From positions 6,281,501-6,345,500 of the forward strand of contig NZ_CP107811.1 of NCBI RefSeq assembly GCF_036346105.1: DNA of 64,000 nucleotides, read 5' to 3'. The translations under genes were made by a program, and so were the position numbers. The stretch is from Streptomyces sp. NBC_00539 (lineage in GTDB: Bacteria; Actinomycetota; Actinomycetes; Streptomycetales; Streptomycetaceae). Positions 6,532 through 63,964 of the stretch are shown here, one piece after another; positions within the stretch are counted from its first letter, which is position 1, and every line of letters begins with the position of its first letter. The notes beneath the pieces are model-generated. The model saw nothing but the letters and a program-made list of their open reading frames with translations, was not told the origin of the DNA and did not search any database.

Positions 6532-6596
6532 TAGGGCGTGTCTTTCGGATCATGCCGGGCCCGCGGCGGCCCGGCTGATCCGAAGGACACGCCCTA
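6532..6596. repeat. 65-nt near-perfect palindrome between convergent genes
   Basis: Outer arms of 21 nt (6532-6552 and 6576-6596) pair with a single G-T type mismatch, and an inner 7-bp stem GCCGGGC/GCCCGGC continues the hairpin. The outer end contains the stop codon of the leftward DUF5133 gene. It can act as a bidirectional terminator for the ligase and the DUF5133 gene. The long terminal inverted repeats with almost nothing between them also resemble a miniature mobile element remnant. Confidence 0.8.
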
Positions 6597-6821: not shown

Positions 6822-7041
6822 GGGCGGATCCTTTCGGGAAAGCCGGACGATCTTGGCCCTCGGCTGCCCCGGTTGCGCGGGGCTACACCTGCCTCGCGGA
6901 CGCGGAGTCCGGCGCGGGCCCCGGGGATGCCCCCGGCCGTGCGGGGTACTCGCGTCGTCGGCAGGCGAAGCGGCATGGAGCGGCGGCGATCGCAGCACCG
7001 ACGGCGGCGCGGATAGCGGCACTTGGCAACGAAGGGAAACG

Positions 7042-7479: not shown

Positions 7480-7500
7480 GCCGGGGACCGGGTCCGCCGC

Positions 7501-9966: not shown

Positions 9967-10005
9967 CGTGGACCGGCTTTCTCGGCGGGGGAGGGGAGTC
10001 GTACG

Positions 10006-14067
<4,062 letters not shown>

Positions 14068-44410: not shown

Positions 44411-44469
44411 GTCGAGCCTCCTCAGGTGCACGGTCGTGCGGAGTTGCGCGCGGGTGTCCGGGGTCGGGG

Positions 44470-45996: not shown

Positions 45997-46033
45997 CTGC
46001 GTACGTCTCCCGTTTCTCATGCCTGCCGGAGTC

Positions 46034-48785: not shown

Positions 48786-49040
48786 ATGTCGCTGCCCACC
48801 ATCGAAGAGCTCGCGAGCCAGCTGGAGGCCGTTTCCGGCGCCGCGGAGGTCAGCCCCGACGCCCCGCTCCAGCACATCACGGACGTCGACTCGCTGGACC
48901 TCATGGAGTGGCTGTACGGCTTCCAGACCAAGTACCCCCACATCCCGGCCGACGAGACGCTCTTCGCGGACCTCGACGACACGACGACGCTGCGCGACGT
49001 CTACGCGAAGATCGTCGATCTCGTCCCGGCCCAGGCATAG
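48786..49040 (+). CDS. Acyl carrier protein
   Basis: 84 residues. Ser of DVDSLDLMEWLYGFQTKY is the phosphopantetheine site; helix 1 is TIEELASQLEAVSG. An atypical ACP, with Trp and Tyr after the DSL. Ribosome site GAGAGGA. First gene of a three-gene rightward unit with KSIII and a ketoreductase. Confidence 0.87.
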   Translation: MSLPTIEELASQLEAVSGAAEVSPDAPLQHITDVDSLDLMEWLYGFQTKYPHIPADETLFADLDDTTTLRDVYAKIVDLVPAQA

Positions 49041-49051: not shown

Positions 49052-50038
49052 GTGACCGGCTTCGACATCACCGGGTGGGGCATGTCCGTACCCGAGCGCA
49101 TCGTCACCAGCGCGGAACTCGCCGAGCGTTTCGGCGTGGACGAGCACTGGGTCGTCAGCCGCTGCGGCATCCGTGAGCGGCGGGCCGTTGACCCGGGGCA
49201 GACCACCGTCTCCCTGGCCGTCGAGGCCGGCCGGCGCGCTCTGGACAAGGCGGGCCTGACCGGCGCCGACATCGCCCACCTGATCGTCGCCACGGCGACG
49301 CCCGAGCAGCCGTCCCCGGCGACGTCCGCGTTCGTCCACCACGAACTCGGCATCGCCGGCAGCGCCCACGACGTGAACTCCGAGTGCGCGGGCTTCGTGT
49401 ACGGGCTCGTCTCCGCGATGGCGCTCATCGCGATCGACCCCCGGCCGATCCTGCTGATCGGCTCCGACACCCACACCCTGACCGCCAACCCCGCCGACCG
49501 GGACCTGTCCATCCTCGTCGGCGACGGCGCGGGCGCCGTCGTCCTCCAGCCCGGCCCCGAGAACCGGGTCAAGGCCTGGAACCTGGGCGCCGACGGCTCC
49601 TGCACCGGCTCCTTGAAGGTGCTCGCGGGCGGCAGCCGGATGCCCGCCACCGCCGAGACCGTGGCGGCGGGACTGCACTACGCGCAGATCAACGGCAACG
49701 AGATCTACCTCAACGCCGTCCGCTACACCGTCCGCACGGTGCGCGAGACGCTGGAGAGCGCGAAGGTGGACGCGGCCGACGTGGACCACGTCGTACCGCA
49801 CCAGGCCAACATCCGCATCATCAACTCGATCATGTCCCACACCGGACTGCGGCCGGAAGCGCTGATCACCAATCTGGAGAAGTACGGCAACACGGCCTCG
49901 GGTTCGATCCCGATCGCGCTGACCGAAGCCCTCGACGCGGGACGCATCAAGGCCGGGGACACGGTCCTGCTGGCCGGGTTCGGCGCCGGCATGACATGGG
50001 GCTCGATCCTGATGGAATGGGGCGGAAGGGCGGCATGA
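49052..50038 (+). CDS. Beta-ketoacyl-ACP synthase III
   Basis: 328 residues. Cys112 in VNSECAGFVYGL, His in VVPHQANIRII and Asn in KYGNTASGSIPIALTEA form the triad of FabH. GTG start behind GAGGA. It begins or extends a chain on the ACP just upstream. Confidence 0.94.
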   Translation: MTGFDITGWGMSVPERIVTSAELAERFGVDEHWVVSRCGIRERRAVDPGQTTVSLAVEAGRRALDKAGLTGADIAHLIVATATPEQPSPATSAFVHHELGIAGSAHDVNSECAGFVYGLVSAMALIAIDPRPILLIGSDTHTLTANPADRDLSILVGDGAGAVVLQPGPENRVKAWNLGADGSCTGSLKVLAGGSRMPATAETVAAGLHYAQINGNEIYLNAVRYTVRTVRETLESAKVDAADVDHVVPHQANIRIINSIMSHTGLRPEALITNLEKYGNTASGSIPIALTEALDAGRIKAGDTVLLAGFGAGMTWGSILMEWGGRAA

Positions 50039-50787
50039 GCAACAAGAGCACGGGCGTACGGCCCGAGGCGCCGGTCGCGCTGGTCACCGGCGCCTCGGGC
50101 GGCCTCGGCCAGGCCCTGGCGCTGGAACTGGACGCGCTCGGCTGCCGGGTCGCCGTCCACTACAACAGTTCGCGGGACGCGGCGCTTGCGGTGCAGGAGA
50201 AACTGACCAACCCGTCCGTTCTGGTCACCGGCGACGTCGGCTCCTGGGAGACGGTCCAGGGGATCTACGCCGAGATCACCGGGGCGCTGGGACCGGTGGA
50301 CGTCCTCGTCAACAACGGGGCCATCCGCAAGGACAGCCTGATGGCGATGCAGAACCCCGCGGACTGGGCACAGGTCATCCAGACCAATCTGATCGGGTCC
50401 TTCCACACGGCCCGGGCCGCGGTCCCGGCCATGCTGCGCCAGAGGTGGGGCCGGATCGTCAACATCGTCTCGCCGTCGGGCATCATCGCCACCGCCGGCC
50501 AGACGGCGTACTCGGCGTCCAAGGCGGGCCTGATCGGCTTCACCCGCACCCTCGCGGCCGAATGCGGCCGCCGGGGCGTGACCGTCAACGCGCTGTCCCC
50601 CGGATTCATGATCACCGGTATGACGAAGGACCTTCCGGAACGGGTCATCGAGGGCATGGAGGGCAAGGCGCCCATCCCGCGCTTCGTCACGGTCGAGGAG
50701 GTCGCCCGCAGCGCCGGCCTCTTCCTGGACCAGGACTGCATGACGGGCCAGGTCATCAGCATCGACAGCGGAGTCTCCATCACCTGA
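50035..50787 (+). CDS. SDR ketoreductase, FabG-like
   Basis: 250 residues. TGASGGLG cofactor site, NNGA, active-site NIVSPSG and YSASKAG, and C-terminal MTGQVISIDSGVSIT of FabG. Reduces beta-keto thioesters with NADPH. Start overlaps the KSIII stop (ATGA). Confidence 0.93.
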   Translation: MSNKSTGVRPEAPVALVTGASGGLGQALALELDALGCRVAVHYNSSRDAALAVQEKLTNPSVLVTGDVGSWETVQGIYAEITGALGPVDVLVNNGAIRKDSLMAMQNPADWAQVIQTNLIGSFHTARAAVPAMLRQRWGRIVNIVSPSGIIATAGQTAYSASKAGLIGFTRTLAAECGRRGVTVNALSPGFMITGMTKDLPERVIEGMEGKAPIPRFVTVEEVARSAGLFLDQDCMTGQVISIDSGVSIT

Positions 50788-50960: not shown

Positions 50961-51881
50961 CTACGCGGCGGGAGAAGCGGCGGGGGACTGGGCCGCGCCG
51001 TGCCCGCGATGGGTGGCGCAACCGCGCCCGAGGGTGCACGGCCGCGGGCCCGAAACGGTCCGGCCGACCTCGAACACCCCCATCAGGAACGGGTCCAGGA
51101 CTGCGGAAGGACGCTGCGGCGCGCGGGGCTGCGGCGTACGCAGGATCTCCAGGTACGCGGCCTCCGTCTCCGGCGCCGGATCCGTGCCCAGCTCCTCCGC
51201 CAGGACCCGGCGCAGCTGGTGGTAACTGCGCAGCGCCTCGGCCCGGTTGCCGGCGCGCTTGTGCGCCGTCATCCGGCACCGGTACGCGCTCTCCCGGAAC
51301 GGGGCCCGCCGCACCGCCTCCTCCGCGTAGCGCAGGGCGTGGTGCTCGTCACCGAGCGCGGAGGACGAAAGGCTCGCCAGCTCCAATGCCGTCAGGCGCA
51401 GTTCCTCCAGTTGCTCGCGCATCGCGTTGACCCACTCGCCCTCGTGCGAGGGCAGGAAGGACCCGCGCAGGTTCGACACCGCGCCCGACGCCAGCTGCTG
51501 CGCCACCGCGAACGCGCCCTCCGCGAACGCGGAGGTCGCCTCCGTCACCGCGAGCTCCGCGCACTCCACGTCCACTGCCGCGTCCTTGGGCACGCGCAGC
51601 ACGTACCGCCCGCCCTGCGCCACCAATGCGGCCTCACCGGGCTCGTCCTGAGGCATCGTCACGAACGTCCGCACCCGGCTGACGACACTGCGCAGCGCGG
51701 AGGCCCACGTGTCGGGCAACCCCTCCGGCCACACGGTTTCCGCCAGCTGGTCCCGCTCCGTACCGCCCGCCCGCTCGATGACCAGCCGAGCGAACGCCAC
51801 CTGTGCCTGTGCGCCGGAGAGATGCCGCGAGGGCGCTCCCGACGGCTCGATCGTGACAAGTCCTACGAGTCTGATCAGCAC
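50961..51881 (-). CDS. SARP-family (BTAD) pathway-specific activator
   Basis: 306 residues. N-terminal winged-helix DNA-binding part (SGAQAQVAFARLVIERAGG, LPDTWASALRSVVSRVRTFV), then the bacterial transcriptional activation domain (ELAVTEATSAFAEGAFAVAQQL, LRYAEEAVRRAPFRESAYRCRM, QLRRVLAEELGTDPAPETEAAYLEIL). These activators bind heptamer direct repeats near the -35. GTG 51881 with GGAGGG. C-terminal tail of about 30 residues has an unusual Cys pair. Divergent from the operon at 52142. Confidence 0.93.
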   Translation of the reverse strand: MLIRLVGLVTIEPSGAPSRHLSGAQAQVAFARLVIERAGGTERDQLAETVWPEGLPDTWASALRSVVSRVRTFVTMPQDEPGEAALVAQGGRYVLRVPKDAAVDVECAELAVTEATSAFAEGAFAVAQQLASGAVSNLRGSFLPSHEGEWVNAMREQLEELRLTALELASLSSSALGDEHHALRYAEEAVRRAPFRESAYRCRMTAHKRAGNRAEALRSYHQLRRVLAEELGTDPAPETEAAYLEILRTPQPRAPQRPSAVLDPFLMGVFEVGRTVSGPRPCTLGRGCATHRGHGAAQSPAASPAA

Positions 51882-52029
51882 TGTGTACCCTCCGAAACTG
51901 CCGGGATACCGGCCGTGTCCCCCTGGTCTTGTGCGCTGCGAACATACACGCGCCACTTCTCCGCATGTCAACAACAAATGGGGAACGCACGGAGTCGGGA
52001 TTCGCTTTCGTCCTTTTCGCGTCCCGCTG

Positions 52030-52141: not shown

Positions 52142-53359
52142 ATGAACGTGAACGCAACCGAAGCCTGGGCCCGTCTGGAGCCGAAGCTGGCCTACTTCCG
52201 CGACCGCGTCCGGTCCTTGGAGTACGAGCCCGTCCGCAAGAACAGCTTCGTCGCCTACACCGTCGAGCGGGATTCCGCGTACGCCGACCAGGACGGCCAG
52301 CGCCTGCTGATGATGTCCGGCTACAGCTACCTCGGCCTCGCCGGGGACGAGCGCGTCGTCGCGGCGGCCAAGGCCGCCCTGGACCTCTACGGAACCGGCA
52401 ACCACGGGGTGCGCGCCCTGGCGGGCTCGACCCCGCTGCACGAGGACCTGGAAGCCGAGGTCGCCCGGTTCGCCGGCCGCGAACGCGCCCTGGTGTTCGG
52501 CTCCGGCTACGCGGCGAACGTGGGCACCGTCGGCGCCCTCGTGGGACCGGGCGACACCGTCTTCATCGACAAGTACGACCACGCCAGCATCGTCGACGGC
52601 TGCAAGCTCTCCGGTGCCACGGTCACCCGGTTCCGCCACAACGACCCCGGCCACCTGGACCGCCGCCTGGCCGCCGCCCCCGACACCGGGGTGCGCCTGG
52701 TCATCGTCGACAGCGTCTACTCCATGGACGGCGACATCGCCCCCCTCGTGGACCTGCGCAAGGTCTGCGACGCCCACAACGCGCTGCTGATGGTCGACGA
52801 GGCCCACGCCCTCGGAGTCATCGGCGCCACCGGCAAGGGCATCGAGGAGCACTTCGACTACGAGGTGAAGGTCGACGTCAAACTCGGCACCCTCTCCAAG
52901 GCCATCCCCTCCATGGGCGGCTGGGTCGCCGGCTCCGCCGACCTGATCCACCACCTCAAGTACGCGGCCCGGCCCTTCCTCTTCTCCGCGGCCCTCGGCC
53001 CGGCCCAGGCCGCCGCCGCGCTGGAGGCCCTGCGCATCCTCCAGCGGGAGCCGGAACGCGTCGAGTTCGTGCAGCGCGAAGCCGAACGCTTCCGCGGACT
53101 GCTCCACGCGGCGGGCATGAGCACGGTCGACAGCGAGACCGCCGTCGTCCCGATCATCGCCGGCTCCGACACCGCCGCCTACGACTACGCGACCACCTGC
53201 CGCAAGAACGGCGTCATCGGCCTGCCCGTCGTCACCCCGGCCGTCCCCAACGACCTGGCCCGGCTGCGGATCGCCATCACCGCAGCCCACACGACGGCCG
53301 ACATCGACTTCGCCGCCGACGCGTTCATCACCTCCGCCCGCGAGTGCCGGATCATCTGA
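52142..53359 (+). CDS. Alpha-oxoamine synthase (AONS/KBL/ALAS family)
   Basis: 405 residues, PLP enzyme that decarboxylatively joins an amino acid to an acyl thioester, giving an alpha-amino ketone. Family motifs: YSYLGLAGDERVVAAAK, GTGNHGVRALAGSTPLHEDLE, DEAHALGVIGATGKG (Asp219, His222) and the PLP lysine K253 in GTLSKAIPSMGGWVAG. Start ATG 52142 is directly behind GAGGAG, so GTG 52148 at a better spacing may be the real start. First gene of the long operon and, from the neighbouring ACP and ligase, probably uses a carrier-bound acyl donor. Does not have the features of biotin-cluster genes. Confidence 0.92.
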   Translation: MNVNATEAWARLEPKLAYFRDRVRSLEYEPVRKNSFVAYTVERDSAYADQDGQRLLMMSGYSYLGLAGDERVVAAAKAALDLYGTGNHGVRALAGSTPLHEDLEAEVARFAGRERALVFGSGYAANVGTVGALVGPGDTVFIDKYDHASIVDGCKLSGATVTRFRHNDPGHLDRRLAAAPDTGVRLVIVDSVYSMDGDIAPLVDLRKVCDAHNALLMVDEAHALGVIGATGKGIEEHFDYEVKVDVKLGTLSKAIPSMGGWVAGSADLIHHLKYAARPFLFSAALGPAQAAAALEALRILQREPERVEFVQREAERFRGLLHAAGMSTVDSETAVVPIIAGSDTAAYDYATTCRKNGVIGLPVVTPAVPNDLARLRIAITAAHTTADIDFAADAFITSARECRII

Positions 53360-53412
53360 CCGCCCTCCCGCGCGCCACTTCGTCCCACCACCTCACTCCA
53401 GGGGGAGCACAG

Positions 53413-54666
53413 ATGCCCGGATCGTCCAGGGGCAGTTCGGTACGGCCGGCGGTCGCCATCACCGGTATGGGCGTGGTCACCCCCGGCGGATGCAGCCCGG
53501 ACGACCTGTGGGCCACACTGCGGGCCGGCCGCTCCACCGCGGCCGAGCTGACGCACATCGACCTCAGCCGGCACCGGGTACGGATCGGCTGCCGCGTCCG
53601 GGGACTCGACGGACTCGCCGGGCTGCTCCCCGCGAAGGACGCCCGCCGGATGGACCCCTTCGCCCACTACGGCACCCTGGCCGCCCTCGCCGCCCACCGC
53701 GACGCGGGCGCACCCGCCGCCGAAGCCGGCCGGACCGCCATCGTCGTCGGCAACGCCGTCGGCGGACGCGCCACCAGCGACCTGGAGTCGGCGCACTACG
53801 GCGAGAGCGGCCCCGCCGGGGTCAACCCGCTGATGCCGCTGATGACGATGCCCAACGCCGCCGCCGCCCAGATCGCCATGCGGCTCGGCTGGACGGGCCC
53901 CGCCCTCACGCTGGCCAACACCTGTGCCAGTGGCGCCGACGCCATCGGCCACGCCCTGCTGCTGCTCCAGACCGGCCGCGCCGACCTCGTCCTCGCCGGG
54001 GGCTGCGAGCACACCCTCACCCCCGTCACCCTGGCCGGCTTCGGCAACCTCAACGCCGTCTCGCTGCGCAACGACCGGCCCGAAAGGGCCTCCCGGCCCT
54101 TCGACAAGGACCGCGACGGGTTCGTGATGGGGGAGGGCGCCGGATTCGTCGTCCTGGAACGGCTCGACGACGCCAAAGCGCGCGGCGCGAAGACGTACGG
54201 GCTCGTCGCCGGGTACGCGGCCACCGCCGACGCCCACCACCTCGCGATGCCGCTCCCCGACGGGGCGGGCGCCGCGGCGGCCATGGCCTCGGCCATCGCC
54301 GACGCGGACCTGGACCCCGGCGACATCGTCCACGTCAACGCGCACGGCACCTCCACGCCCCACAACGACCGCGCCGAGGCCGCCGCCCTCACCAAGGTGT
54401 TCGGCACCGCCCAACCGCCGGTCACCGCCCCCAAGTCCGTCATCGGGCACCTCATCGGCGCCGCCGGAGCCGTCGAACTCATCGCCACGGTGCAAGCCAT
54501 GCGGCGCTGCGAGGTGCCGCCCACCGCCAACCACGAAGAGCTGGAGCCAGGAATGGACATCGATGTGGTCCACGGCGCACCCCGCGCCGTGCGGCTGGGA
54601 CCCGCACTCAGCAACTCCTTCGGGTTCGGCGGCCACAACTCCTCCGTCGTGGTGGTGCCGGCATGA
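53413..54666 (+). CDS. Beta-ketoacyl-ACP synthase, KAS II type
   Basis: 417 residues. Catalytic Cys171 in LANTCASGADAIGHAL; His in VNAHGTSTPHNDRAEAA; His in IGHLIGAAGAVELI; NSFGFGGHNSSVVV. GGGGGAG before the ATG. Stop overlaps the next start (ATGA). One of four ketosynthases in the window, and the only one in the large operon. Confidence 0.94.
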   Translation: MPGSSRGSSVRPAVAITGMGVVTPGGCSPDDLWATLRAGRSTAAELTHIDLSRHRVRIGCRVRGLDGLAGLLPAKDARRMDPFAHYGTLAALAAHRDAGAPAAEAGRTAIVVGNAVGGRATSDLESAHYGESGPAGVNPLMPLMTMPNAAAAQIAMRLGWTGPALTLANTCASGADAIGHALLLLQTGRADLVLAGGCEHTLTPVTLAGFGNLNAVSLRNDRPERASRPFDKDRDGFVMGEGAGFVVLERLDDAKARGAKTYGLVAGYAATADAHHLAMPLPDGAGAAAAMASAIADADLDPGDIVHVNAHGTSTPHNDRAEAAALTKVFGTAQPPVTAPKSVIGHLIGAAGAVELIATVQAMRRCEVPPTANHEELEPGMDIDVVHGAPRAVRLGPALSNSFGFGGHNSSVVVVPA

Positions 54667-55517
54667 CCTCGGCACCCCCTTCACCGCTCCTGCCCCCGCC
54701 GGTCCGCACCCTGACGGTCGGCGAGGCCCAGATCACCGCCTACCGCGCCGCCGCCCGGCCCGGTCTGGCGCCCGCGGAACCCGGCCAGGCCTCGCCCGTC
54801 CACGCCTTCGTGCTCGCCCACGCCGTCGCCGAGGACACCGTCGCCGCCCTGACGGCCGGCGAAGCGGGCCCGGTCTCCGTGGTCCACCTCGGCCAGGACA
54901 TCCGCCTGCTGCGGCCGGTCCGCCCCGGCGAACGGGTCACCGTACGGCTCGACCTGCTCGGCGTACGCAAGGAGCCGCGCGGCGCCCGCATCGCCCTGCG
55001 CGTGCGCCTGTACGGGCAGGACGGGCCTGAGCCGTTCGCGGAACTGGTCATCTCCGCCCTGCTCGTCGGCGCCACCGCGCTGGAGCCGTTCGGCGACATC
55101 ACGGGCGCTGCCGCCGCACCGGCCCCGCTCGGCGCGGGCGAGCCGCAGACCGCGACGCACGAACCGACCGCCGACTGGATCAGTGCGTACGCCCACGCCT
55201 CCGGCGACCTGAACCCCATCCACCTGGACGCGGCGGCGGCCCGCGAGGCCGGCTTCGAGACCGTCATCGCCCACGGCATGGGCGTCGTCGCGCTGGCCGT
55301 CGAGGAGGCGGTGGACCGTTTCGCGGGCGGCGACGCGGCGCGGGTCCGCGGTCTCGGCTGCCGTTTCTCGGCCCCCGTGCTCCCCGGCGTCCCGCTGGAG
55401 ATCGTGTTGCAGCCCGACGCCCGGGCCCACGTCGTCCGCTTCACCTGCAAGACGCAGGCGGGCGTCGCCGTCAAGGGCGGCTGGATCGAGTTCGCCCGAG
55501 GGGGAGCCGATGCCTGA
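54663..55517 (+). CDS. MaoC-like dehydratase with two hotdog folds
   Basis: 284 residues. C-terminal MaoC hydratase-2 motif YAHASGDLNPIHLDAAAAREAGFETVIAHGMG carries the catalytic Asp/His; N-terminal half is a second, inactive hotdog fold. It dehydrates 3-hydroxyacyl thioesters. Overlaps its neighbours on both sides. Confidence 0.87.
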   Translation: MTSAPPSPLLPPPVRTLTVGEAQITAYRAAARPGLAPAEPGQASPVHAFVLAHAVAEDTVAALTAGEAGPVSVVHLGQDIRLLRPVRPGERVTVRLDLLGVRKEPRGARIALRVRLYGQDGPEPFAELVISALLVGATALEPFGDITGAAAAPAPLGAGEPQTATHEPTADWISAYAHASGDLNPIHLDAAAAREAGFETVIAHGMGVVALAVEEAVDRFAGGDAARVRGLGCRFSAPVLPGVPLEIVLQPDARAHVVRFTCKTQAGVAVKGGWIEFARGGADA

Positions 55518-57039
55518 GGCGCCCGTGGTCCCCGAGGCACTGACCGACGGCTTCCTGCGGCAGGTGCGCGAGCGGCCCGACGCCACCGCCCTGCTCTTCA
55601 ACGGGGAGGCGACCGGCTACCGCGAGCTGTACGAACGGGCCGGACGGGAACAGGAGCGCCTGGCCGGGCTGCCCCTGGCCCCCGGCGAGCCGGTGGGTGT
55701 CCTCGCCGACAAGTCCCCGGCGGCGGTGGCCCTCGTACTGGCCTGCCTGCTCAGCCGGATACCCGTGCTGCTGCCCTCCCCGGCCCTCGCCGACAGCCTG
55801 CTCGCGGACCTCTTCGCCCAGGCCGGCTGCGTCCACGTCCTCGCGCCGGGCGGCGCCGGCGCCCGCGTCGCGCCCAACCCGCTGACCGGGGCGAGACCGC
55901 TGCCGCCCGAGGAGGCGGCGGAGGTGGCGCTGATGCTGACCACCTCCGGATCCACCAGCCTCCCGAAGATCGTCCCGCTCGGCCGGGAGGCGCTGGACCG
56001 CTTCGGAGCGTGGGCCGGCCCCGCGTTCGGCATCGGCCCCGGCCGGACCGTCCTCAACTACGCGCCCCTCAACTTCGACCTCTGCCTGCTGGACGTGTGG
56101 ACCACCCTCGCGCGCGGCGGCCGGGTCGTCCTGGTGGATCCCGCCCGCGCCACCCACGGCGGCCACCTGCTCGACCTGATCGTCCGGCACGACGTCCACG
56201 TGGTCCAGGCCGTCCCGATGGCACTCGGTCTGCTCCAGGACGCGGCCGCCAAGGAGGGTGCCACCTTTCCGGGCGTCGACCACGTGATGTTCACCGGCGA
56301 CGCCCTGCCCGACCGCACCTACGCCGCGCTGCCCGCCCTCTTCCCCGGGGCGCGCATCCACAACATCTACGGCTGTACGGAGACCAACGACAGCTTCGTC
56401 CACGAGGTCGACCCGGCGGCGCCGCCCCCGGTGCCGATCGGCCGCCCGCTGCCCGGCGTGCATGCCCTCCTCGTCGACCCCGAGACGAACACCGTCGTCG
56501 AAGGGGCCGGCACCGGCGAGCTGTTCGTCCACACGCCCTTCCAGACGCGCGGCTACCTCGACCGGTCCCGGCACGCCGACAAGTTCACCGCCCACCCGCT
56601 CGGCCTGGACGAGCGCCGCTGGTTCCGCAGCGGCGACCTCGTACGCCGCGACGCGCAGGGAACCCTGCACCTGACCGGACGCACCGACTTCCAGGTCAAG
56701 GTGCGCGGCGTCGCCGTCAACACCGCCGAGGTCGAACGGGTGCTCCAGGAGCACCCCGGCGTACTGGAGGCGGGCGTCGCGGCCCGGCCCGACCCGATCG
56801 CGGGCAAGAAGCTCGTCGCCGCCGCCCGACGGGTCCCCGGCTCCACGCTGACCGTCCTGGAACTGCGCGGGCACTGCGCCCGCAACCTGCCCCGGGGCGC
56901 CGTCCCCACCCAGCTCACGCTCACCGACGAGCCGCTGCCCAAAACGGCCACGGGGAAGGTCGACCGCAAGGCGCTCGACCGGATCACCCCGCTCACCGCC
57001 CTCACCACCACGTCTCCCGCCGAAGGATCCCGATCATGA
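55510..57039 (+). CDS. AMP-dependent acyl/aryl ligase
   Basis: 509 residues, ANL superfamily. P-loop LTTSGSTSLPKIVPL, IYGCTETND, GRTDFQVKVRGVAV and the C-terminal PKTATGKVDRKAL lysine. Activates a carboxylate as the acyl adenylate and most likely hands it to the ACP encoded next. ATGA overlap with that ACP and 8-bp overlap with MaoC. Its substrate is the key unknown of the pathway. Confidence 0.92.
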   Translation: MPEAPVVPEALTDGFLRQVRERPDATALLFNGEATGYRELYERAGREQERLAGLPLAPGEPVGVLADKSPAAVALVLACLLSRIPVLLPSPALADSLLADLFAQAGCVHVLAPGGAGARVAPNPLTGARPLPPEEAAEVALMLTTSGSTSLPKIVPLGREALDRFGAWAGPAFGIGPGRTVLNYAPLNFDLCLLDVWTTLARGGRVVLVDPARATHGGHLLDLIVRHDVHVVQAVPMALGLLQDAAAKEGATFPGVDHVMFTGDALPDRTYAALPALFPGARIHNIYGCTETNDSFVHEVDPAAPPPVPIGRPLPGVHALLVDPETNTVVEGAGTGELFVHTPFQTRGYLDRSRHADKFTAHPLGLDERRWFRSGDLVRRDAQGTLHLTGRTDFQVKVRGVAVNTAEVERVLQEHPGVLEAGVAARPDPIAGKKLVAAARRVPGSTLTVLELRGHCARNLPRGAVPTQLTLTDEPLPKTATGKVDRKALDRITPLTALTTTSPAEGSRS

Positions 57040-57287
57040 GCAACATCGACACCATCAAGAACTTCGTCATCAGCGAATTCCTCCCCGGCACCGCCCCCGC
57101 CGAACTCGCCGCCGACCACGACCTCCTCAACGACGGGGTCATCGACAGCCTGGGCGTCCTCAAGCTGATCGCCTGGGTCGAGGACCGCTTCGAACTCGCC
57201 GTCGGGGACGCCGACCTCGACCCCGAGAACTTCCGCAGCGTCGAGGCCATCGACCACTTCATCACCCACGCCCGCGCCGCGGCCTGA
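57036..57287 (+). CDS. Acyl/peptidyl carrier protein
   Basis: 83 residues; phosphopantetheine Ser in NDGVIDSLGVLKLIAWVEDRF. GVIDSL is the D-alanyl or peptidyl carrier style, often loaded by a discrete adenylating ligase. Second ACP of the cluster, distinct from the one at 48786. Confidence 0.9.
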   Translation: MSNIDTIKNFVISEFLPGTAPAELAADHDLLNDGVIDSLGVLKLIAWVEDRFELAVGDADLDPENFRSVEAIDHFITHARAAA

Positions 57288-57327
57288 CCCGTTCACCGAA
57301 GCACCCACGCGCAAGGAAGGAGGAACC

Positions 57328-58365
57328 GTGCACGAGGCACTCGCCGGCCTGCTGGAACGCAAGGCCCCGATCGGCCGCGAGACATGGCGGTCCTGGTGGG
57401 ACGAACTCGGCGCCGGCGGTCTCGACCGCGCGCAGGCCGTCGGCCTGCTGTCCTCGCTGACCAGCCGGCTCCCCGGCCACGACACCCTGCGGCACCTGCT
57501 GGACTCCCTCGCGGAGCGCAGGCCGCCGGCCAGGGCGGGCGGCCCCTGGCAGGACACCGTGAACGTCGTCGGCACCGGCGGCGGTCCCGCGACCTTCAAC
57601 GTCTCCACCGCCGCGGCGTTCGTCGCCGCGGCGGCCGGGGTGAAGGTGGTCAAGACCGGCTCCCGCGCCTACACCAGCGCGCTCGGCTCCGTCGACCTGC
57701 TGGAGCGGCTCGGGGTGCGGCTGACGTCCTCCTACACCCAGACCGAGGACGTCCTCGCGGAGTACGGGATCGCCTTCGCGGGCCCCTTCGTCTACCCGGC
57801 GCAGCTGACCCGCCTCGCGCGGACCGTGGCCCCGCTGGCCATGAAACCGTTCGGGCGGTTCCTGAACGCGCTCGGGCCGTTCCTCGCCGACCTGCCGGTG
57901 ACGGCCCAGGTCACCGGCGTCAGCGCGGCCGCGCCCCTCGACACCCTTCGCGAACTGGCCGCCACGACGACCACCCGGCGGATCTGGCTCACCGCCAACC
58001 ACACCGGCGCCGACGAGCTGCTGCCCTTCGCCGTCAACACCGTCTACGGGGACCGGTCGGCCACCCGCGTCATCCGACCGGGCGAACTCGTCCCGGGTGA
58101 GGGCTCCTTCGAGGACCTGCGCCCCGTGAGCGACCCGGCCGGGGCCGTCCCGCACTTCCTGTCCGTCCTCGCCGGCGACGCGGGCCCGGTGGCCCGGCGC
58201 ACGGTCGCCCTCGGCGCGGCCGCCCTGATCGTCGCGGCGGCCCCCGGCCGCAGCTGGCCCTCGGCGGTGGCCCTCGCCGACGGGGCGATCGGCTCCGGCA
58301 CGGCCGCAGACCTCGCGGGGCGCCTCGCGGCCGGGTCCCCGCGCGCGGCGGTGGCCCGTGTCTAG
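57328..58365 (+). CDS. TrpD-like anthranilate phosphoribosyltransferase paralogue
   Basis: 345 residues, transfers phosphoribose from PRPP to an amine. PRPP/Mg residues remain: GTGG (82-85), NVST (91-94), Lys109 and Asp229-Glu230. Residues that contact anthranilate in canonical TrpD are changed: KHGNR reads KTGSR (109-113), GSAD reads GSVD, and the HPAM region reads VYPAQ (Tyr156). The ribosome site is AAGGAGGAA before GTG 57328. So it most likely phosphoribosylates another amine. A housekeeping trpD is expected elsewhere in the genome. Confidence 0.85.
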   Translation: MHEALAGLLERKAPIGRETWRSWWDELGAGGLDRAQAVGLLSSLTSRLPGHDTLRHLLDSLAERRPPARAGGPWQDTVNVVGTGGGPATFNVSTAAAFVAAAAGVKVVKTGSRAYTSALGSVDLLERLGVRLTSSYTQTEDVLAEYGIAFAGPFVYPAQLTRLARTVAPLAMKPFGRFLNALGPFLADLPVTAQVTGVSAAAPLDTLRELAATTTTRRIWLTANHTGADELLPFAVNTVYGDRSATRVIRPGELVPGEGSFEDLRPVSDPAGAVPHFLSVLAGDAGPVARRTVALGAAALIVAAAPGRSWPSAVALADGAIGSGTAADLAGRLAAGSPRAAVARV

Positions 58366-59182
58366 CACCCCGGCCCCCACCGCGGCGCCCTTCTTCCCCG
58401 GCCGGCGGGCCCCCGGCGGCGCCCCGGGACTCGCCCTGTTCCTGAATGCGGGAGACCCGCCGCTCCCGGTCCTGCGCGACCTCGTCCTGATGCTGGACGA
58501 GGAGCGCGTGGACTGCCTCGAACTGGCCGTGCCCTTCCCGGACTCGGTCACCGACGGCCCCGTCATCCGGCGCTCCGCGAGCCGGGCCCTGGAGCGGGGC
58601 GGGGCCGCCCTGGACGACGTCCTCGCCTTCGTCGCGGACGTACGTCCCCACCTGACGCACACACGGATCGCCCTGCTCACCGACTGGAGGTACTCCCTGG
58701 GGCACCGTGACCCGGCCGCCGCCACCCGTGACATCGCCGCGTCGGGGGCGGACGCGCTGCTCGTCCACGCGCTGCCGCCCAGGCTGCGCGCGACGTACCT
58801 GGAGTCGGCCGCGGCGGCCGCGCTCCCGGTCGTCACCACCTGTTACGCCTCCAGCCCGGACGCGACCCGCGCCCGGGCCGCCGCGGACGCCACCGCCTAC
58901 CTGTACCTCGTCGCCCACTACGGGCGCAGCGGTACCGCGCCGGCCGCCGGGCACGGCGCGCTCGCGCGGACGGTCGCGCAGCTGCGGGAGCACACCGCGG
59001 CCCCGGTCGCAGTCGGCTTCGGGGTCAGCACCCGCCAGGACGTCGAAGCGGTGGGCGCGAGCGGCGCGGACGCCGCCGTCATCGGCTCCGCCGCCGTGGC
59101 CGCCGTGGAGCGGGCGCAGCAGGACGGGCGTGATCTGCCCGGCGCCTTCCGGGAGTTCGTCCGCTCGGTACGGCCCGCGTAA
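58358..59182 (+). CDS. TrpA-like (tryptophan synthase alpha / indole-3-glycerol phosphate lyase) paralogue
   Basis: 274 residues. TIM barrel that cleaves glyceraldehyde 3-phosphate from the indole of indole-3-glycerol phosphate in canonical members. The catalytic pair is retained: Glu55 in CLELAVPF and Asp66 in SVTDGP. Loop 6, RSGVTG in canonical enzymes, reads GRSGTA and the MYYN segment LLTDWRYS. No trpB is nearby, so it probably releases a free heterocycle like plant BX1. Overlaps trpD-like by 8 bp. Confidence 0.85.
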   Translation: MSSTPAPTAAPFFPGRRAPGGAPGLALFLNAGDPPLPVLRDLVLMLDEERVDCLELAVPFPDSVTDGPVIRRSASRALERGGAALDDVLAFVADVRPHLTHTRIALLTDWRYSLGHRDPAAATRDIAASGADALLVHALPPRLRATYLESAAAAALPVVTTCYASSPDATRARAAADATAYLYLVAHYGRSGTAPAAGHGALARTVAQLREHTAAPVAVGFGVSTRQDVEAVGASGADAAVIGSAAVAAVERAQQDGRDLPGAFREFVRSVRPA

Positions 59183-59273
59183 GCACCGGTCGTACCCGGT
59201 GCCGGACCGGCACGGCAAAGACCCCTCCCTCATCAGGTCCCTCCGCACACCATTCACAGATCAGGAGACAGCC

Positions 59274-59648
59274 ATGATCGTCCGCGACATCGAGTCCGTG
59301 AAGACCGTCGAGTGGGGCAACGGCCTGAGCCGCCGCTTCCTCCTCGCCGACGACGGCCTCGGTTACACGCTCACCGACACCGTCGTACTGGCCGGTACCA
59401 AGTCGCGCCTGGAGTACGTCAACCACCTGGAGGCGTGCTACTGCATCGCCGGCTCCGGCGAGGTCATCGAGCTGGACGGCACCACCCACGAGATAGTCCC
59501 CGGCCGGATGTACGCCCTCGACCGGCACGACGCCCACTACCTCGTCGCCAGCCCCCACGAGGACCTGCGCCTGGTCTGCGTCTTCTCGCCGGCCCTGAAC
59601 GGCAACGAGGTCCACCAGCTCGACGCCCACAACTCGTCCGCCTACTGA
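59274..59648 (+). CDS. Ectoine synthase-like cupin
   Basis: 124 residues, homologous to EctC along its whole length: NHLEACYCIAGSGEVIEL, GRMYALDRHDAHYL and VFSPALNGNEVHQLD. The residues that match the EctC iron ligands Glu57, Tyr85 and His93 are Glu53, Tyr80 and His88. EctC closes the ring of N-acetyl-diaminobutyrate by loss of water. No ectA or ectB lies near, so a different cyclodehydration is likely. CAGGAG before the ATG. Confidence 0.85.
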   Translation: MIVRDIESVKTVEWGNGLSRRFLLADDGLGYTLTDTVVLAGTKSRLEYVNHLEACYCIAGSGEVIELDGTTHEIVPGRMYALDRHDAHYLVASPHEDLRLVCVFSPALNGNEVHQLDAHNSSAY

Positions 59649-59702
59649 GGCACTCACCACCACGACGTCCGAGCCGTCCACCGACTCAGAGGGGGGTCCG
59701 CC

Positions 59703-60854
59703 GTGATCCGCTGGAACACCGATCAGACCGATCTGCGCGAGGGCCTGGAGCGGTGGGGAGAGGCGCTGAGCGCCGATCACATCGAACGCGAAGAACAGGG
59801 CCGCTTCCCCGAGGACAAATGGAAGCTCCTGCGGGAAACCGGAATCCTCTCGCTGCCCTTCGAGGAGCAGTACGGCGGTCTCGGACAGTCACTGCTCACC
59901 ACCATGTACGCGCTGGAGGGCCTCGGCGAGTACAACCGGGATTCCGGGCTGAGCTTCTCGGCCACCACGTCGATCTGCTCGACCGGAATCCCGGTACAAC
60001 ACTTCGGCACCGACGACCAGAAACAGCGGTACCTGCCCCTGATCGCGTCGGGCGAGGCCATCGGCGCGCACGCCATCACCGAGGCCGAGGGCGGCTCCGA
60101 CGCGATGGCGATGACCACCCGGGCGACCCGCGACGGCGAGACGTTCGTCCTGAGCGGCAGCAAGGCGTTCGTCAGCAACGGCCCGATCGCGGACGTGATC
60201 GTGGTCTACGCCCGCACCCACCCCCGCGGCGGCCCCCTCGGAACCACGGCGTTCCTGGTCGACCGCGACACCCCGGGCCTCACCACGGGCAGTCCCGGCA
60301 AGAAGATGGGACTGCGCACCTCGCCGCTGTGCGAGCTGTACCTGGACGACGTGCGCGTGCCCAGGAGCGCGGTACTCGGCCGGGTCGGCGGCGGCCTGAT
60401 GGTCCTGGACCACGTCATGAAGCGGGAGGTCCTCCTCTCCTTCGTCGTCAACGCCGGCGAGATGCGCCACCGGCTGGACCGGTGCGTGGCCTACGCGAAG
60501 ACCCGCCACTCCTTCGGGCGGCCCATCGGCTCGTACCAGTCGGTCGCCAACAAGATCGTCGACATGCAGATCCAGCTGGAGAGCGCCCGCAAGTGGCTCT
60601 ACGACACGGGCGAGAAGCTGGAGGCGGGCGAGGACGTCACCGTGGACCTCGCGATCGCCAAGCTCGTCACGAGCCAGGGCAACCTCGCCACCAGTCTCGC
60701 GGCCGTACAGATCTTCGGCGGCCACGGCTACATGTCCGAGTACGGGCTGGAGCAGGACGTCCGCAACGCCGTGGGCGGCACGGTCTACTCCGGCACCAAC
60801 GAGATCCAGTACAACCGCATCGCCTCGATGCTGGGCCTCGGGTCGGGCCGATGA
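59703..60854 (+). CDS. Acyl-CoA/acyl-ACP dehydrogenase
   Basis: 383 residues. ACAD motifs AHAITEAEGGSDAMAM and a C-terminal GGTVYSGTNEIQYNRIASM. In canonical ACADs the catalytic Glu lies in YEGT; here YSGT, so the base must come from elsewhere or the reaction differs. FAD-dependent alpha,beta desaturation of an acyl or aminoacyl thioester is expected. GTG start. Confidence 0.87.
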   Translation: MIRWNTDQTDLREGLERWGEALSADHIEREEQGRFPEDKWKLLRETGILSLPFEEQYGGLGQSLLTTMYALEGLGEYNRDSGLSFSATTSICSTGIPVQHFGTDDQKQRYLPLIASGEAIGAHAITEAEGGSDAMAMTTRATRDGETFVLSGSKAFVSNGPIADVIVVYARTHPRGGPLGTTAFLVDRDTPGLTTGSPGKKMGLRTSPLCELYLDDVRVPRSAVLGRVGGGLMVLDHVMKREVLLSFVVNAGEMRHRLDRCVAYAKTRHSFGRPIGSYQSVANKIVDMQIQLESARKWLYDTGEKLEAGEDVTVDLAIAKLVTSQGNLATSLAAVQIFGGHGYMSEYGLEQDVRNAVGGTVYSGTNEIQYNRIASMLGLGSGR

Positions 60855-61600
60855 GCGGATCGCCGCCCCGTACGCTGCTCAAGGTCTGCGGGGCCACGGC
60901 GCGCAGCGACATCGAGGCCGCGGCCACTGCCGGGGCCGACTGCGTCGGGCTCTGGCACGGCGTACCCGGCGGCCCCCGGGAGCTGGACGCGGACACGCTC
61001 ACCGGCCTCGCCGCGGCGGCCCGTTCGGCCGGCCTGCTGCCGGCCCTGGTCACCTTCCTCGCCGACGCCGGAGCACTGACGGAGCTCGCCCGCCGCACGG
61101 GGGTCGGCTGGATCCAGCTCCACGCGTACCAGTCGCCGGCGACCGTACGGGCCCTGCGCGCGGCCCTCCCGCCCGAGGTCGCGGTCGTCAAGGTGCTGCA
61201 CCTCGCGCAGGGCGGCGCGGGGTGCGTCGAGCGGCCGCTCATCGGCGCCTACGAACGCGCCGGCACCGACCTCTTCCTCATCGACGCGGCCACCGAGGAC
61301 GGCCGGATCGGCAGTACCGGCCAGGCCCCCGACCCGGCGGACGTGATGGCGCTACTGCCCCGCATGACCCGGCCGTTCCTGCTGGCCGGGGGCCTGGAGC
61401 CGACGAGCCCGCCCCGGTACGCGGACGTGGTGCGCGCCCCGGGCTTCCACGGGATCGACGTCGACACCGCGGCCCGCTCCCCGCTGACCGGCGGTTTCGG
61501 CGTCCCCGAGATCACCGCCCTGGCCCGCGCCTGGCGCGGGGCACCCTCCGGCGGCCCCGCCCCCGCCCACCCGCCCGCCGACCTGGAGCCGTCCCGATGA
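60851..61600 (+). CDS. TrpF-like phosphoribosylanthranilate isomerase paralogue
   Basis: 249 residues, TIM barrel. Catalytic Cys13 in LLKVCGATARSD and Asp145 in LFLIDAATED are both kept. VQLHG reads IQLHAY and DVSSGVE reads DVDTAARSPL, so the ligand pocket differs. Performs an Amadori rearrangement of a phosphoribosyl amine to a 1-deoxyribulose. ATGA overlaps at both ends. Confidence 0.87.
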   Translation: MSGSPPRTLLKVCGATARSDIEAAATAGADCVGLWHGVPGGPRELDADTLTGLAAAARSAGLLPALVTFLADAGALTELARRTGVGWIQLHAYQSPATVRALRAALPPEVAVVKVLHLAQGGAGCVERPLIGAYERAGTDLFLIDAATEDGRIGSTGQAPDPADVMALLPRMTRPFLLAGGLEPTSPPRYADVVRAPGFHGIDVDTAARSPLTGGFGVPEITALARAWRGAPSGGPAPAHPPADLEPSR

Positions 61601-62319
61601 GCATCCACGACCGGACCGACTTCCCCTTCCTGCGCGCCCTCATGGCTTCCCCCACCCCCGTCGTGATGGAGGTGAAACAGCGCGACGCCCACGGCCACGA
61701 CCTGCTCGGCGGCCGCACCCCGGCCCAGGTCGTGAGCGCGTACGAGAGCGCGGGCGCGCCCTGCGTCTCCGTGGTGACGGGCCGCTGGTTCGGCGGCTCG
61801 AACACGCTGCTGCGCGAGGTCGCCGCGCTGACCCGGCTCCCCCTCCTCCAGAAGGACTTCATCACCCGCACCGAACAGCTGGGCACAGCAGCCGAGTTGG
61901 GTGCTTCGGCGGTACTCCTGACGGCCGCCCTGCTCCCGGCGTCGAGCCTGGCCAAGCTGGTGGACCGGTGCCTGCTGACCGGCCTCACCCCCTTCGTCGA
62001 GATCACCACGGAAGCCGAGCTGGAAGCCGTGCCGCACGCCCCGGAGTGCGTCATCGCGGTCAACAACAAGGACATCAGGACGCGCGAACGCGATACGGGC
62101 GACCTCGGCCGCAGCATCGGACTCCTGCCGGCCGTCCGCGCCACCGGCACCCCCTGCCCGGTCAGCGCGAGCGGCATAGACGGCCCCACGACGGCCGCCC
62201 GCCTGCTGGACGCCGGCTTCGGCGGCCTCCTGGTCGGCACCTCCCTGCTGCGCAGCGGATCCCCGGCCCAGTGGCTGGACGCGGTGAGCGGCGCCCGCAG
62301 GGGACTGGCGGTCCGGTGA
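61597..62319 (+). CDS. TrpC-like indole-3-glycerol-phosphate synthase paralogue
   Basis: 240 residues, TIM barrel. Counterparts of catalytic Glu51, Lys53, Lys110, Glu159 and Asn180 (S. solfataricus numbers) are present as Glu25, Lys27, Lys86, Glu135 and Asn156. The SES motif reads SAS (190-192), so Glu210 is lost, NNR reads NNK, and the RKSPS loop reads QRDAHG. It closes a pyrrole ring with loss of CO2 and water. Translationally coupled to TrpF-like and the hydrolase. Confidence 0.87.
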   Translation: MSIHDRTDFPFLRALMASPTPVVMEVKQRDAHGHDLLGGRTPAQVVSAYESAGAPCVSVVTGRWFGGSNTLLREVAALTRLPLLQKDFITRTEQLGTAAELGASAVLLTAALLPASSLAKLVDRCLLTGLTPFVEITTEAELEAVPHAPECVIAVNNKDIRTRERDTGDLGRSIGLLPAVRATGTPCPVSASGIDGPTTAARLLDAGFGGLLVGTSLLRSGSPAQWLDAVSGARRGLAVR

Positions 62320-63338
62320 GCACCCCGGCGACCGCGGCCGGCGCCGCCCGGCCCTTCACCCTCGACGCGGCGGGCACCACCGTCTCCGGGCTCCTGGCCC
62401 TGCCCGAGGGCGGCGCCCCCCGCTCCACGGTCCTGGCGATCCACGGCCGGGGCATGCGCGCGCGGTACTGGGACTCCTTCGTCCCCCTGGCCACCGCCCT
62501 CGGCCACGCCGTCCTCGCCGTGGACCGCCCCGGCTACGGAGCCTCCGCGGCCTCCCTGCCCGACGGCCAGTCCCTGCCCGACCAGGCGAGGACACTGCGC
62601 CGGGCGCTCGCGGAGCACGCCCGCACCCACCGGCTCGGCGCCGGGGTCTTCCTCCTCGGCCACTCCGACGGCGGCAAGGTCGCCCTGCACACGGCGGCGA
62701 TCGCCCCGTCCGTCCCCCTGCTCGGCCTGGACGCCTCCGGCGTGGGCTACGAGTACCACCCGCAGGCCCTGCACTTCCCCTCGACGCTCGGCGGCGGCGC
62801 GACCCGGCTCAACTGGGGCCCCCTGAACCTCTATCCGCCGGGCACCTTCCAGGCGAGCCGCGCCCTGCTCTCACCCGTCCCGCCCCGCGAGTCGGCGGAC
62901 ACGCCCTGGTGGCCCCGGCAGTACGAGGAACTGGCTCCCGGCGTCCGGATCCCGGTCCGGCTGACCTTCGCCGAACACGAGGGGTGGTGGCGGCTCGACG
63001 CCCGCACCCTGACGGCGATGACCACCCGTCTGACGGCGTCGCCGTCGGTGACGGTGGAGCACCTGCCCGGCTCGGGACACAACCTGAGCCTCGGCCACAC
63101 CGCGACCGCCTACCACCTGCGGGTACTGGCCTTCCTGGAGGAGTGCCTCCTCGCCGCGCGCCGGTCCGCCGGGCCGGCCGGGAAGGGTCCGACCGAACAG
63201 CATGCGTCACCGGCCCTCGAAGAACGCTCGAGAGATGGTCGAAACCCCATGGCCGGGGGGCCCGGTGGATGCCACGATGCGATGTCCGTGCCGATGCGAG
63301 CAGCAACACAAGCACCCAGAAGAGGACGCAGCCAATGA
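62316..63338 (+). CDS. Alpha/beta hydrolase with a long C-terminal tail
   Basis: 340 residues. Nucleophile GHSDGGKVALHTAA, HGRGMRARYW oxyanion strand, His in PGSGHNLSLGHT. The last 50 residues are low complexity (EERSRDGRNPMAGGPGGCHD) and run into the DUF1772 start (ATGA). GTG start overlaps trpC-like. Perhaps releases a carrier-bound product or hydrolyses an ester. Confidence 0.83.
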   Translation: MSTPATAAGAARPFTLDAAGTTVSGLLALPEGGAPRSTVLAIHGRGMRARYWDSFVPLATALGHAVLAVDRPGYGASAASLPDGQSLPDQARTLRRALAEHARTHRLGAGVFLLGHSDGGKVALHTAAIAPSVPLLGLDASGVGYEYHPQALHFPSTLGGGATRLNWGPLNLYPPGTFQASRALLSPVPPRESADTPWWPRQYEELAPGVRIPVRLTFAEHEGWWRLDARTLTAMTTRLTASPSVTVEHLPGSGHNLSLGHTATAYHLRVLAFLEECLLAARRSAGPAGKGPTEQHASPALEERSRDGRNPMAGGPGGCHDAMSVPMRAATQAPRRGRSQ

Positions 63339-63964
63339 CCACACATCCGGCCGGGAACCCCCAGCCCTACCCGCCCCAGCCCGGCGTCCACAACCCGTAC
63401 GCCCAGCAGCAGCCCCAGCCCCCGCAGCACCAGCAGCAGGGGCCGGCCGCGGGACCGGCGGGACGCGGAAAGGGCGCGACGGTACTGCTCCTCGTCTCCA
63501 CCGCCCTGCTCGGTCTGATGGCCGGTCTGTTCTTCGCCTTCGACGTCTCGGTGATGCCGGGTCTGGCGAAGGCGGACGACCGGACCTACGTCACCGCGAT
63601 GCAGAACTTCAACGCCGCGATCGACGGCAACCCCCTGTTCGGCATGGCCTTCATGGTCGCGCTGCTGCTGCCGGTCGTGTCGGCGATCCTGGAGTACCGC
63701 AAGGGACGCCGCGACGTGGCGGTCTGGGTCGCCGTCGGCGCGGTCCTCTACTTCGTCGTCCTGATGATCACTTTCAGCGTCAACATCCCGCTGAACAACG
63801 AACTGGCGGACGCGGGCGACGCGGCGAAGATGACCGACTTCTCGATCGTCGAAAAGTTCAAGACGACCTGGGTCACCACCAACATCCTGCGCACGCTCCT
63901 GTCCACGGTGGCCCTCGCCGCCCTGTCCCGGGCCCTGGTGCTGTACGGCCGGGCCACTCGCTGA
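63335..63964 (+). CDS. DUF1772 (anthrone oxygenase-like) membrane protein
   Basis: 209 residues. Cytoplasmic N-terminal tail rich in Pro/Gln (PQPYPPQPGVHNPYAQQQPQ), then four helices with the DUF1772 signature GLMAGLFFAFDVSVMPGL and NIPLNNEL. Paralogue of the 40770 gene. GAGGACGC ribosome site and ATGA overlap place it in the operon. A possible oxygenase step of the pathway. The window ends 36 bp later. Confidence 0.87.
   Translation: MTTHPAGNPQPYPPQPGVHNPYAQQQPQPPQHQQQGPAAGPAGRGKGATVLLLVSTALLGLMAGLFFAFDVSVMPGLAKADDRTYVTAMQNFNAAIDGNPLFGMAFMVALLLPVVSAILEYRKGRRDVAVWVAVGAVLYFVVLMITFSVNIPLNNELADAGDAAKMTDFSIVEKFKTTWVTTNILRTLLSTVALAALSRALVLYGRATR

Follow-up and report, generated by a model that had tools for sequence, protein, structure and literature searches.

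Eight consecutive genes of Streptomyces sp. NBC_00539, at positions 55510–62319 of a 64,000-nucleotide stretch of its genome (NZ_CP107811.1, positions 6,281,501 to 6,345,500; this whole stretch is called the window), appear to form a pyrrolopyrrole cassette of the type known from the antibiotic kosinostatin. With a probability of about 0.7, the cassette makes a carrier-bound bicycle by way of cyclised glutamine and passes it to a ketosynthase (KS) line. The genes encode, in order, an AMP-forming ligase, a carrier protein (ACP), a TrpD-like and a TrpA-like protein, a cupin resembling ectoine synthase (EctC), an acyl-CoA dehydrogenase (ACAD), and TrpF-like and TrpC-like proteins. A ligase, a carrier and Trp-like phosphoribosyl, isomerase and synthase homologues distinguish a kosinostatin-type module, and the window has all of these. 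The core is known in kind, and the window's cluster is a variant of it.

In the route proposed, the EctC-like cupin would cyclise glutamine, free or on the carrier, its alpha-amine attacking the side-chain amide to give the cyclic amidine 5-amino-3,4-dihydro-2H-pyrrole-2-carboxylate (ADPC), a constituent of anthelvencin and noformycin. The ligase would load the amino acid onto the carrier ACP1, and the ACAD would oxidise the loaded unit to 5-aminopyrrole-2-carboxyl-ACP; we infer the substrate, the intermediates and the relative order of cyclisation and loading from the enzymes present. This aminopyrrole resembles anthranilate minus the carboxylate: its amine is aromatic and the carbon next to it nucleophilic. 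TrpD would put phosphoribose on the exocyclic amine, TrpF would carry out the Amadori rearrangement, TrpC would close a second pyrrole through the neighbouring ring carbon with no decarboxylation, and TrpA would expel glyceraldehyde-3-phosphate. The product, pyrrolo[2,3-b]pyrrole-2-carboxyl-ACP, would then be handed to the FabF-type KS. The second half of the route is supported by the order of events: a pyrrolopyrrole was deduced from the enzyme set before the kosinostatin papers, which name one, were found.

Homology to the kosinostatin genes was judged through two loci rather than through the deposited kst sequence JN038178. One, L130, is from S. spiroverticillatus JCM 4609, which PMC13099267 infers to be where the ksn cluster came from; the other, L112, is from N. 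alkaliphila YIM 80379, whose genome is listed in PMC7918784 with an almost complete kst cluster. The window's proteins are 47–71% identical to those of the two loci (50–70% for the eight genes against L130) and fall with them in a common tree. Disruption of ksnC3, encoding a phosphoribosylanthranilate isomerase, abolishes kosinostatin, and the ksn 'NRPS' (non-ribosomal peptide synthetase) module is described as much more widespread than the entire cluster (both in sections of PMC13099267). 'Ectoine' is among the types given for the kosinostatin region in the antiSMASH table of PMC7918784.

The TrpD and TrpC homologues have kept catalytic residues and lost those that recognise anthranilate. Residues were counted in distinct sequences from all 103 loci gathered, near-identical proteins being merged (77–91 distinct sequences from 91–101 loci per gene). 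The TrpD-like proteins keep the catalytic residues, and none of 86 retains the KHGNR motif and the further Arg that we take to be the anthranilate-site residues; among 29 canonical controls, H is present in 28, N in 27 and R in 29. (One off-pattern TrpD control, L228, is probably a thymidine phosphorylase, L229 gave no TrpD match, and L200 was excluded from the TrpC controls as cassette-like.) In the TrpC-like proteins E51, K53, K110 and E159 are present in 92/92, and the anthranilate-recognition residues, retained by nearly all canonical controls, are lost in all 92. The N-terminal extension is missing too, start codons being script-chosen and a few TrpC N-termini being off, and structure prediction gives the TrpC-like protein the fold of indole-3-glycerol phosphate synthase (IGPS). 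Of 88 TrpA sequences, 86 retain E49 and D60 and two have gaps there. The original prediction, made from the sequence of the window, had these enzymes build a pyrrole on an amine other than anthranilate, in company with carrier chemistry and with TrpA removing glycerol phosphate, and the residue pattern fits this and the enzyme logic behind it, by which any beta-enamine could undergo the ring closure. Its alternative of an indole product is most likely wrong; an aminopyrrole attached to the carrier is the likeliest amine, leading to pyrrolo[2,3-b]pyrrole.

That the four genes are paralogues of those for tryptophan synthesis, as had been supposed, is borne out by canonical copies elsewhere in the 7.5 Mb host genome: trpD at C1:5025633 (257.5 bits), trpC at C1:5137465 and trpA at C1:5139989, with two other TrpF-family matches. 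The operon thus does not hold the only trp genes of the genome.

For the first ring, the ligase pocket, with positions mapped by adenylation-domain motifs, reads D-[LV]-[LF]-Q-x-[TS]-[ILV]-D-S-K in 85/85 proteins across all contexts (position 517 is a gap in one). Its Asp235-type position is the one that binds alpha-amines. Since the code is uniform whatever the context, one amino acid is probably loaded throughout. A class-wide ligase search (E 1e-80) found, besides the window's own genome, only G218 (2 of 197), a single case, where the ligase has no EctC or ACAD neighbours and the code is DLLQIANNSK. At L238 a ligase-carrier pair like that of the cassette (ligase 47% identical) accompanies a ketoacyl synthase III (KSIII) and a major facilitator superfamily transporter, with no EctC or ACAD; its code is DLLQIANNSK, Asp330 being replaced by Asn.

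The ACAD is closest to prolyl-carrier dehydrogenases, its best NCBIfam match being RedW at 344.8 bits, under the model cut-off of 650. Glu stands in 89/89 at the aligned position that is presumably that of the catalytic base; the other Glu of AnaB, two residues earlier, is not kept. As to the cupin, eight of the ten metal and substrate positions given for P. lautus EctC in a section of PMC6344544 are kept in 80/80, and its Trp can be aligned with W21 only by a shift, as in some orphan EctCs described there. EctC chemistry yields a cyclic amidine from an amine and an amide; given glutamine, the enzyme of H. elongata forms ADPC, inefficiently and reversibly (PMC6344544 and PMC5924519). The host has no EctA over the cut-off (best match 24.2 bits against 120.6) and no other EctC, which argues against the usual EctC substrate.

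Two loci connect EctC with the first ring. At L231 (G003; 6100–10099) and L232 (G008; 1978–6141) the ligase, carrier, EctC and ACAD genes stand with a transglutaminase-like gene and the same ligase code, and there is no Trp-type gene within 16 and 7.8 kb respectively. In G003 and G008, which were among 26 genomes searched for the TrpC and TrpD families, none of the matches listed scores like the cassette type. Because these four genes occur without Trp genes, if at two loci only, we assign EctC to first-ring formation and take this part of the cassette to be useful by itself. Low-scoring EctC matches (115–130 bits) in 41 Streptomyces genomes numbered six, four in cassettes (G000, G005, G039 and G028) and two outside. 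The L231 unit adjoins a methylaspartate (glutamate) mutase E chain, a pyridoxal phosphate enzyme and an anthranilate-synthase-type protein.

A number of points weigh against a glutamine-derived pyrrolopyrrole. The ligase code alone cannot name the amino acid. ADPC formation by EctC is inefficient, with the equilibrium towards glutamine (as given in a passage of PMC5924519), so ligation or oxidation must pull it. Position 38, Asn in P. lautus and binding the substrate carboxylate there (PMC6344544), is T in 76 of 80 EctC-like proteins, C in 2 and A in 2; little rests on this, since it is H in 30/30 canonical Streptomyces controls. The W21 match depends on the alignment, for the controls have R, not W, in that column. 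In TrpC, E210 is replaced by Ala, and the matching Glu219Ala kills M. tuberculosis IGPS (a passage of PMC10591298); N180 is A in 1/92 and S211 is G in 6/92. IGPS acts about 1000 times more slowly on a decarboxylated substrate, with 41,000-fold lower efficiency, ring closure with no decarboxylation being possible, though slow (PMC7681013). R36 of TrpF is still Arg in 13/90, the window's among them. Within the available stretches there is no EctC match in L119 (from Actinokineospora auranticolor), no TrpC in L052 and L056, and no TrpA in L092.

The published account of kosinostatin starts from nicotinic acid, which the ligase puts on the carrier; its pyridine is then contracted by the B enzymes, giving a pyrrole, and ribose supplies the second ring through the Trp-like C enzymes. 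The nicotinate origin reportedly goes back to labelled-nicotinate feeding and assays by Ma et al. in 2013. Counting against glutamine, Table 5 of PMC7918784, after that work, lists the kstB group as loading nicotinic acid to give a pyrrole, and the kstC group as turning pyrrole and phosphoribosyl pyrophosphate into the pyrrolopyrrole. The same source relates that kstB7 deletion lowered kosinostatin production, and nicotinic acid is cited too in a passage of PMC8400222. The genes fit this account less well. The ligase, carrier, EctC and ACAD half has no obvious ring-contracting oxygenase, and it is not obvious what EctC and a prolyl-type ACAD would do with nicotinate. The Asp in all 85 ligase pockets, at the position taken to bind alpha-amines, differs from the code PLPAQGVVNK that PMC8400222 quotes for aryl acids, and KstB7, invoked for deformylation, is missing from the second producer's cluster as presented in PMC7918784. 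Nicotinate is, in our judgement, an unlikely precursor; the sequence evidence favours glutamine through EctC, and this conflict over the precursor is the most valuable point to come out of the analysis.

A start from beta-alanine, with beta-alanyl-ACP oxidised to 3-aminoacryloyl-ACP and TrpD, TrpF, TrpC and TrpA then building pyrrole-3-carboxyl-ACP, would give a role to the ACAD as well as to all the Trp enzymes and would fit the loss of carboxylate recognition. It leaves EctC with none, yet 74 of the best 80 relatives (out of 97) have an EctC, as do both Trp-free loci; the Asp235-type code fits an alpha-amino acid, and kosinostatin's pyrrolopyrrole would not result. We regard this origin as very improbable. 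Extremely improbable is a synthesis of ectoine from N-acetyl-diaminobutyrate, with ectoine or a relative as the loaded amino acid: most ectoine-synthase residues are kept in the cupin, but the host lacks EctA over the cut-off, the prolyl-type dehydrogenase suggests a five-membered ring, and no path leads to the known bicycle. Barely credible, despite the conserved TrpA E49 and D60, is the making of indole from free anthranilate for a conjugate, with the remainder as unrelated chain chemistry, given anthranilate sites lost in 86/86 TrpD and 92/92 TrpC and Trp genes that accompany the other four in 85/103 loci. A simple pyrrole-2-carboxyl unit from proline was ranked low, as it leaves EctC and TrpD, TrpF, TrpC and TrpA without a role.

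We would lay even odds on a wider proposal built on the glutamine route: that kosinostatin's pyrrolopyrrole comes from glutamine and ribose via EctC-made ADPC and not from nicotinate, that this group's orphan EctCs serve to make building blocks and are not ectoine remnants, and that the window's family is an undescribed class in which a reducing KS line lengthens the pyrrolopyrrole acyl unit, with release as an alpha-amino ketone.

The cassette occurs widely. A cluster-type TrpA of at least 56% identity is carried by 20 of 393 Streptomyces genomes, the window's own included, the next best match being 36%. The loci comprise 20 TrpA places, four plasmid copies, of which S. clavuligerus has one, and the best 80 of the 97 relatives that a TrpC alignment picked out among named genomes; one of the TrpA places, L059 (36%, without the cassette), is excluded from all counts, and some strains are represented more than once. 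The cassette of G028, overlooked by the TrpA survey because a contig end cuts the gene, was recovered through EctC. All eight genes are present in 85/103 loci, so the Trp set and the ligase, ACP, EctC and ACAD genes do co-occur across genomes, and an alpha-oxoamine synthase (AONS), a FabF-type KS and MaoC lie beside them in 52/103. Among the best 80 of 97 TrpC relatives, TrpF is found in 76, ACAD in 75, EctC in 74, TrpA in 73, ACP and TrpD in 72 each and the ligase in 71; window-like clusters are over-represented, as these relatives came from a window-led alignment.

Gene order is that of the window, except in L114, L122, L129, L133 and L135, where TrpF and TrpC stand together ahead of the remaining cassette or separate from it; these two genes therefore move as a unit. 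Hosts are mostly Actinomycetota (Streptomyces, Kitasatospora, Arthrobacter), with metagenome-assembled genomes assigned to Solirubrobacterales, Dormibacterota (where a contig end cuts the cassette) and Acetobacteraceae. Two cassettes can lie in one strain, L043/L085 without the ligase and TrpF and L051/L104 of the same strain with both; they may share genes, which would support a common building block. In G199, G272 and G129 the cassette TrpA lies near both contig ends, which suggests a cluster in terminal repeats; other copies are on linear plasmids. L097, L110 and L140 (match from 10001) have a cassette-type TrpC, 60–69% identical to the window's, and no other cassette gene within the stretch. 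L235 (G009:C1:8765500-8785000) has two more TrpC-like genes, 35% like the window's, near one chromosome end.

The contexts are of at least three types. Besides the 52 loci with AONS, FabF-type KS and MaoC, four have KS and MaoC without AONS, three a KSalpha with a chain length factor (CLF) and three several NRPS-type adenylation domains; 41 of the 103, with short flanks or contigs, are unclassed. NRPS domains are seen at the S. clavuligerus locus. The window's type makes up 56 of the 62 classable loci, in a sample gathered with window proteins and hence biased towards it. A transglutaminase-like gene occurs in none of these 56 and in 23 of the 47 other loci; in the five maps examined (L039, L052, L056, L112 and L130) it sits between ACAD and TrpF, which overlap in the window with no gene between. 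Its product had no match in the PDB at E 0.1. In a FastTree tree of 74 rows (the window and 73 loci hand-picked of the 103, with a long-branch warning for L115 and L134) a single branch with support 100 splits the window's type from the others. S. cirratus JCM 4738 stands nearest to the window in this tree, with 95% identity across a concatenation of four cassette proteins. L100, labelled Rhodococcus rhodnii NRRL B-16535, is nearly identical to the Kibdelosporangium loci (end branches 0.014–0.039), from recent transfer or a mislabelled genome. From the contexts and the tree split, the cassette looks like a building-block module serving several assembly lines, and the window's type like a coherent family.

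What is new here is the destination: in the window's family the cassette supplies a FabF-type KS, MaoC, KSIII, FabG and, in most loci, AONS, and not an aromatic type II polyketide synthase. By the logic of the enzyme families, extension or condensation of the bicyclic acyl unit would fall to the KS, together with KSIII, FabG, MaoC and the second ACP, and AONS probably couples an amino acid to the chain, CO2 being lost. Four loci of the family have no AONS, so this step may vary.

The cassette lies in an operon at 52142–63964 of 13 co-directional rightward genes, as originally described, with families confirmed by Pfam and NCBIfam (TrpF weakly, 28.5 bits). Eight of its twelve junctions are overlaps, six of 4 bases and two of 8, and four are gaps of 40–91 bases. 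No trpE, trpG or trpB is among the 13, also as predicted. As the limits of the whole cluster these borders were too narrow: judged from the relative L036, it starts at about 41.4 kb, the left part adding the genes from the AraC-type to the SARP-like regulator in the Table. The L036 counterpart of ACP2 is annotated as a hypothetical protein. The five proteins scanned downstream are unrelated. Within 41.4–64.0 kb there are one FabF-type KS and one KSIII and no KSalpha/CLF pair, the whole host genome not having been searched for KSalpha. No genes for a branched octose sugar are among the scanned proteins, no search having been aimed at them. Outside the cluster lie a further KSIII-like match (33284–34249; 37% to the KSIII of the L036 cluster) and a FabG-like one (38289–39053).

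Table. Genes of the cluster, with positions in the window; percentages are identities to the locus named
Feature	Position	Strand	Basis
AraC-type regulator (Cupin_6 + HTH), probable left edge	41420..42427	+	Pfam; 79% to L036 gene at matching place
4'-phosphopantetheinyl transferase	42431..43081	-	Pfam; 75% to L036
alpha/beta hydrolase	43095..43928	-	Pfam; 81% to L036
SRPBCC / polyketide-cyclase-like	43925..44431	-	Pfam; 72% to L036
FAD-linked oxidase (FAD_binding_4, cytokinin-dehydrogenase-like)	44470..46020	-	Pfam; 82% to L036; present too in L037, L045, L070, L120
FMO-like flavin monooxygenase	46034..47599	-	Pfam; 93% to L036
S-adenosylmethionine methyltransferase (CMAS-like)	47609..48505	-	Pfam; 91% to L036
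Probable second small carrier protein (ACP2), DSL motif	48786..49040	+	translation; PP-binding below cut-off, 14 of 20.8 bits; 95% to L036
Ketoacyl synthase III (KSIII)	49052..50038	+	Pfam
FabG-type ketoreductase	50035..50787	+	Pfam
SARP-like regulator (BTAD)	50961..51977	-	Pfam
Alpha-oxoamine synthase (AONS)	52142..53359	+	Pfam/NCBIfam
FabF-type ketosynthase	53413..54666	+	Pfam/NCBIfam
MaoC-type dehydratase	54663..55517	+	Pfam
Cassette: AMP-forming amino acid:carrier ligase, pocket code DLLQMTIDSK	55510..57039	+	55% to S. spiroverticillatus kosinostatin-type locus L130
Cassette: carrier protein (ACP1)	57036..57287	+	50% to L130
Cassette: TrpD-like phosphoribosyltransferase without anthranilate-site residues	57328..58365	+	52% to L130
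Cassette: TrpA-like retro-aldolase	58358..59182	+	59% to L130
Cassette: EctC-like cupin cyclase	59274..59648	+	70% to L130
Cassette: prolyl-carrier-dehydrogenase-like ACAD	59703..60854	+	63% to L130
Cassette: TrpF-like isomerase (enzyme class that of ksnC3)	60851..61600	+	53% to L130
Cassette: TrpC-like ring closer without N-terminal extension	61597..62319	+	62% to L130
alpha/beta hydrolase	62316..63338	+	Pfam; 78% to L036
DUF1772 / anthrone-oxygenase-like protein	63335..63964	+	Pfam

The original prediction recognised no described product with this gene set. For the whole cluster this stands, none having been found in the open-access literature searched, and the window's family contributes a fair number of clusters of which the same is true; for the eight-gene core it does not, that core being the kosinostatin pyrrolopyrrole module. 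If the proposed route is correct, a whole ring-building sequence of primary metabolism, TrpD-TrpF-TrpC-TrpA, has been transferred from anthranilate to another, carrier-bound substrate through residue changes that permit this, and the odd module of one antibiotic is a widespread exchangeable cassette. It would also put the published assignment of the precursor to a direct test and offer a candidate function for some of the orphan EctC proteins, which the window's cupin resembles and whose role PMC6344544 and PMC5924519 leave open.

Each part of the system has a known relative. The tryptophan pathway shares with the cassette the TrpD, TrpF, TrpC and TrpA families, their catalytic residues and the IGPS fold of TrpC; the cassette differs in having lost the residues by which TrpD and TrpC recognise anthranilate, along with the TrpC extension, and its operon in lacking TrpE, TrpG and TrpB. 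Ectoine synthase shares the cupin family, the metal residues and most substrate residues, whereas the window's host has no EctA partner and its EctC-like protein has the Trp shifted and position 38 changed. Prolyl-carrier desaturation for prodiginines (RedM/RedO/RedW, PigI/PigG/PigA) likewise combines a ligase, a carrier and an ACAD; here the ACAD is under the RedW cut-off, the ligase pocket is unlike the proline code, and an EctC is added. The closest system is that for kosinostatin and quinocycline (kst, ksn); L130 and L112 hold the cassette in the window's gene order. There, and in L039, the transglutaminase-like gene is an addition, which we read from these three loci as the defining mark of the kosinostatin module, and the type II KSalpha/CLF of that cluster is replaced in the window's by a FabF-type KS, MaoC, KSIII, FabG, AONS, a methyltransferase and flavoenzymes.

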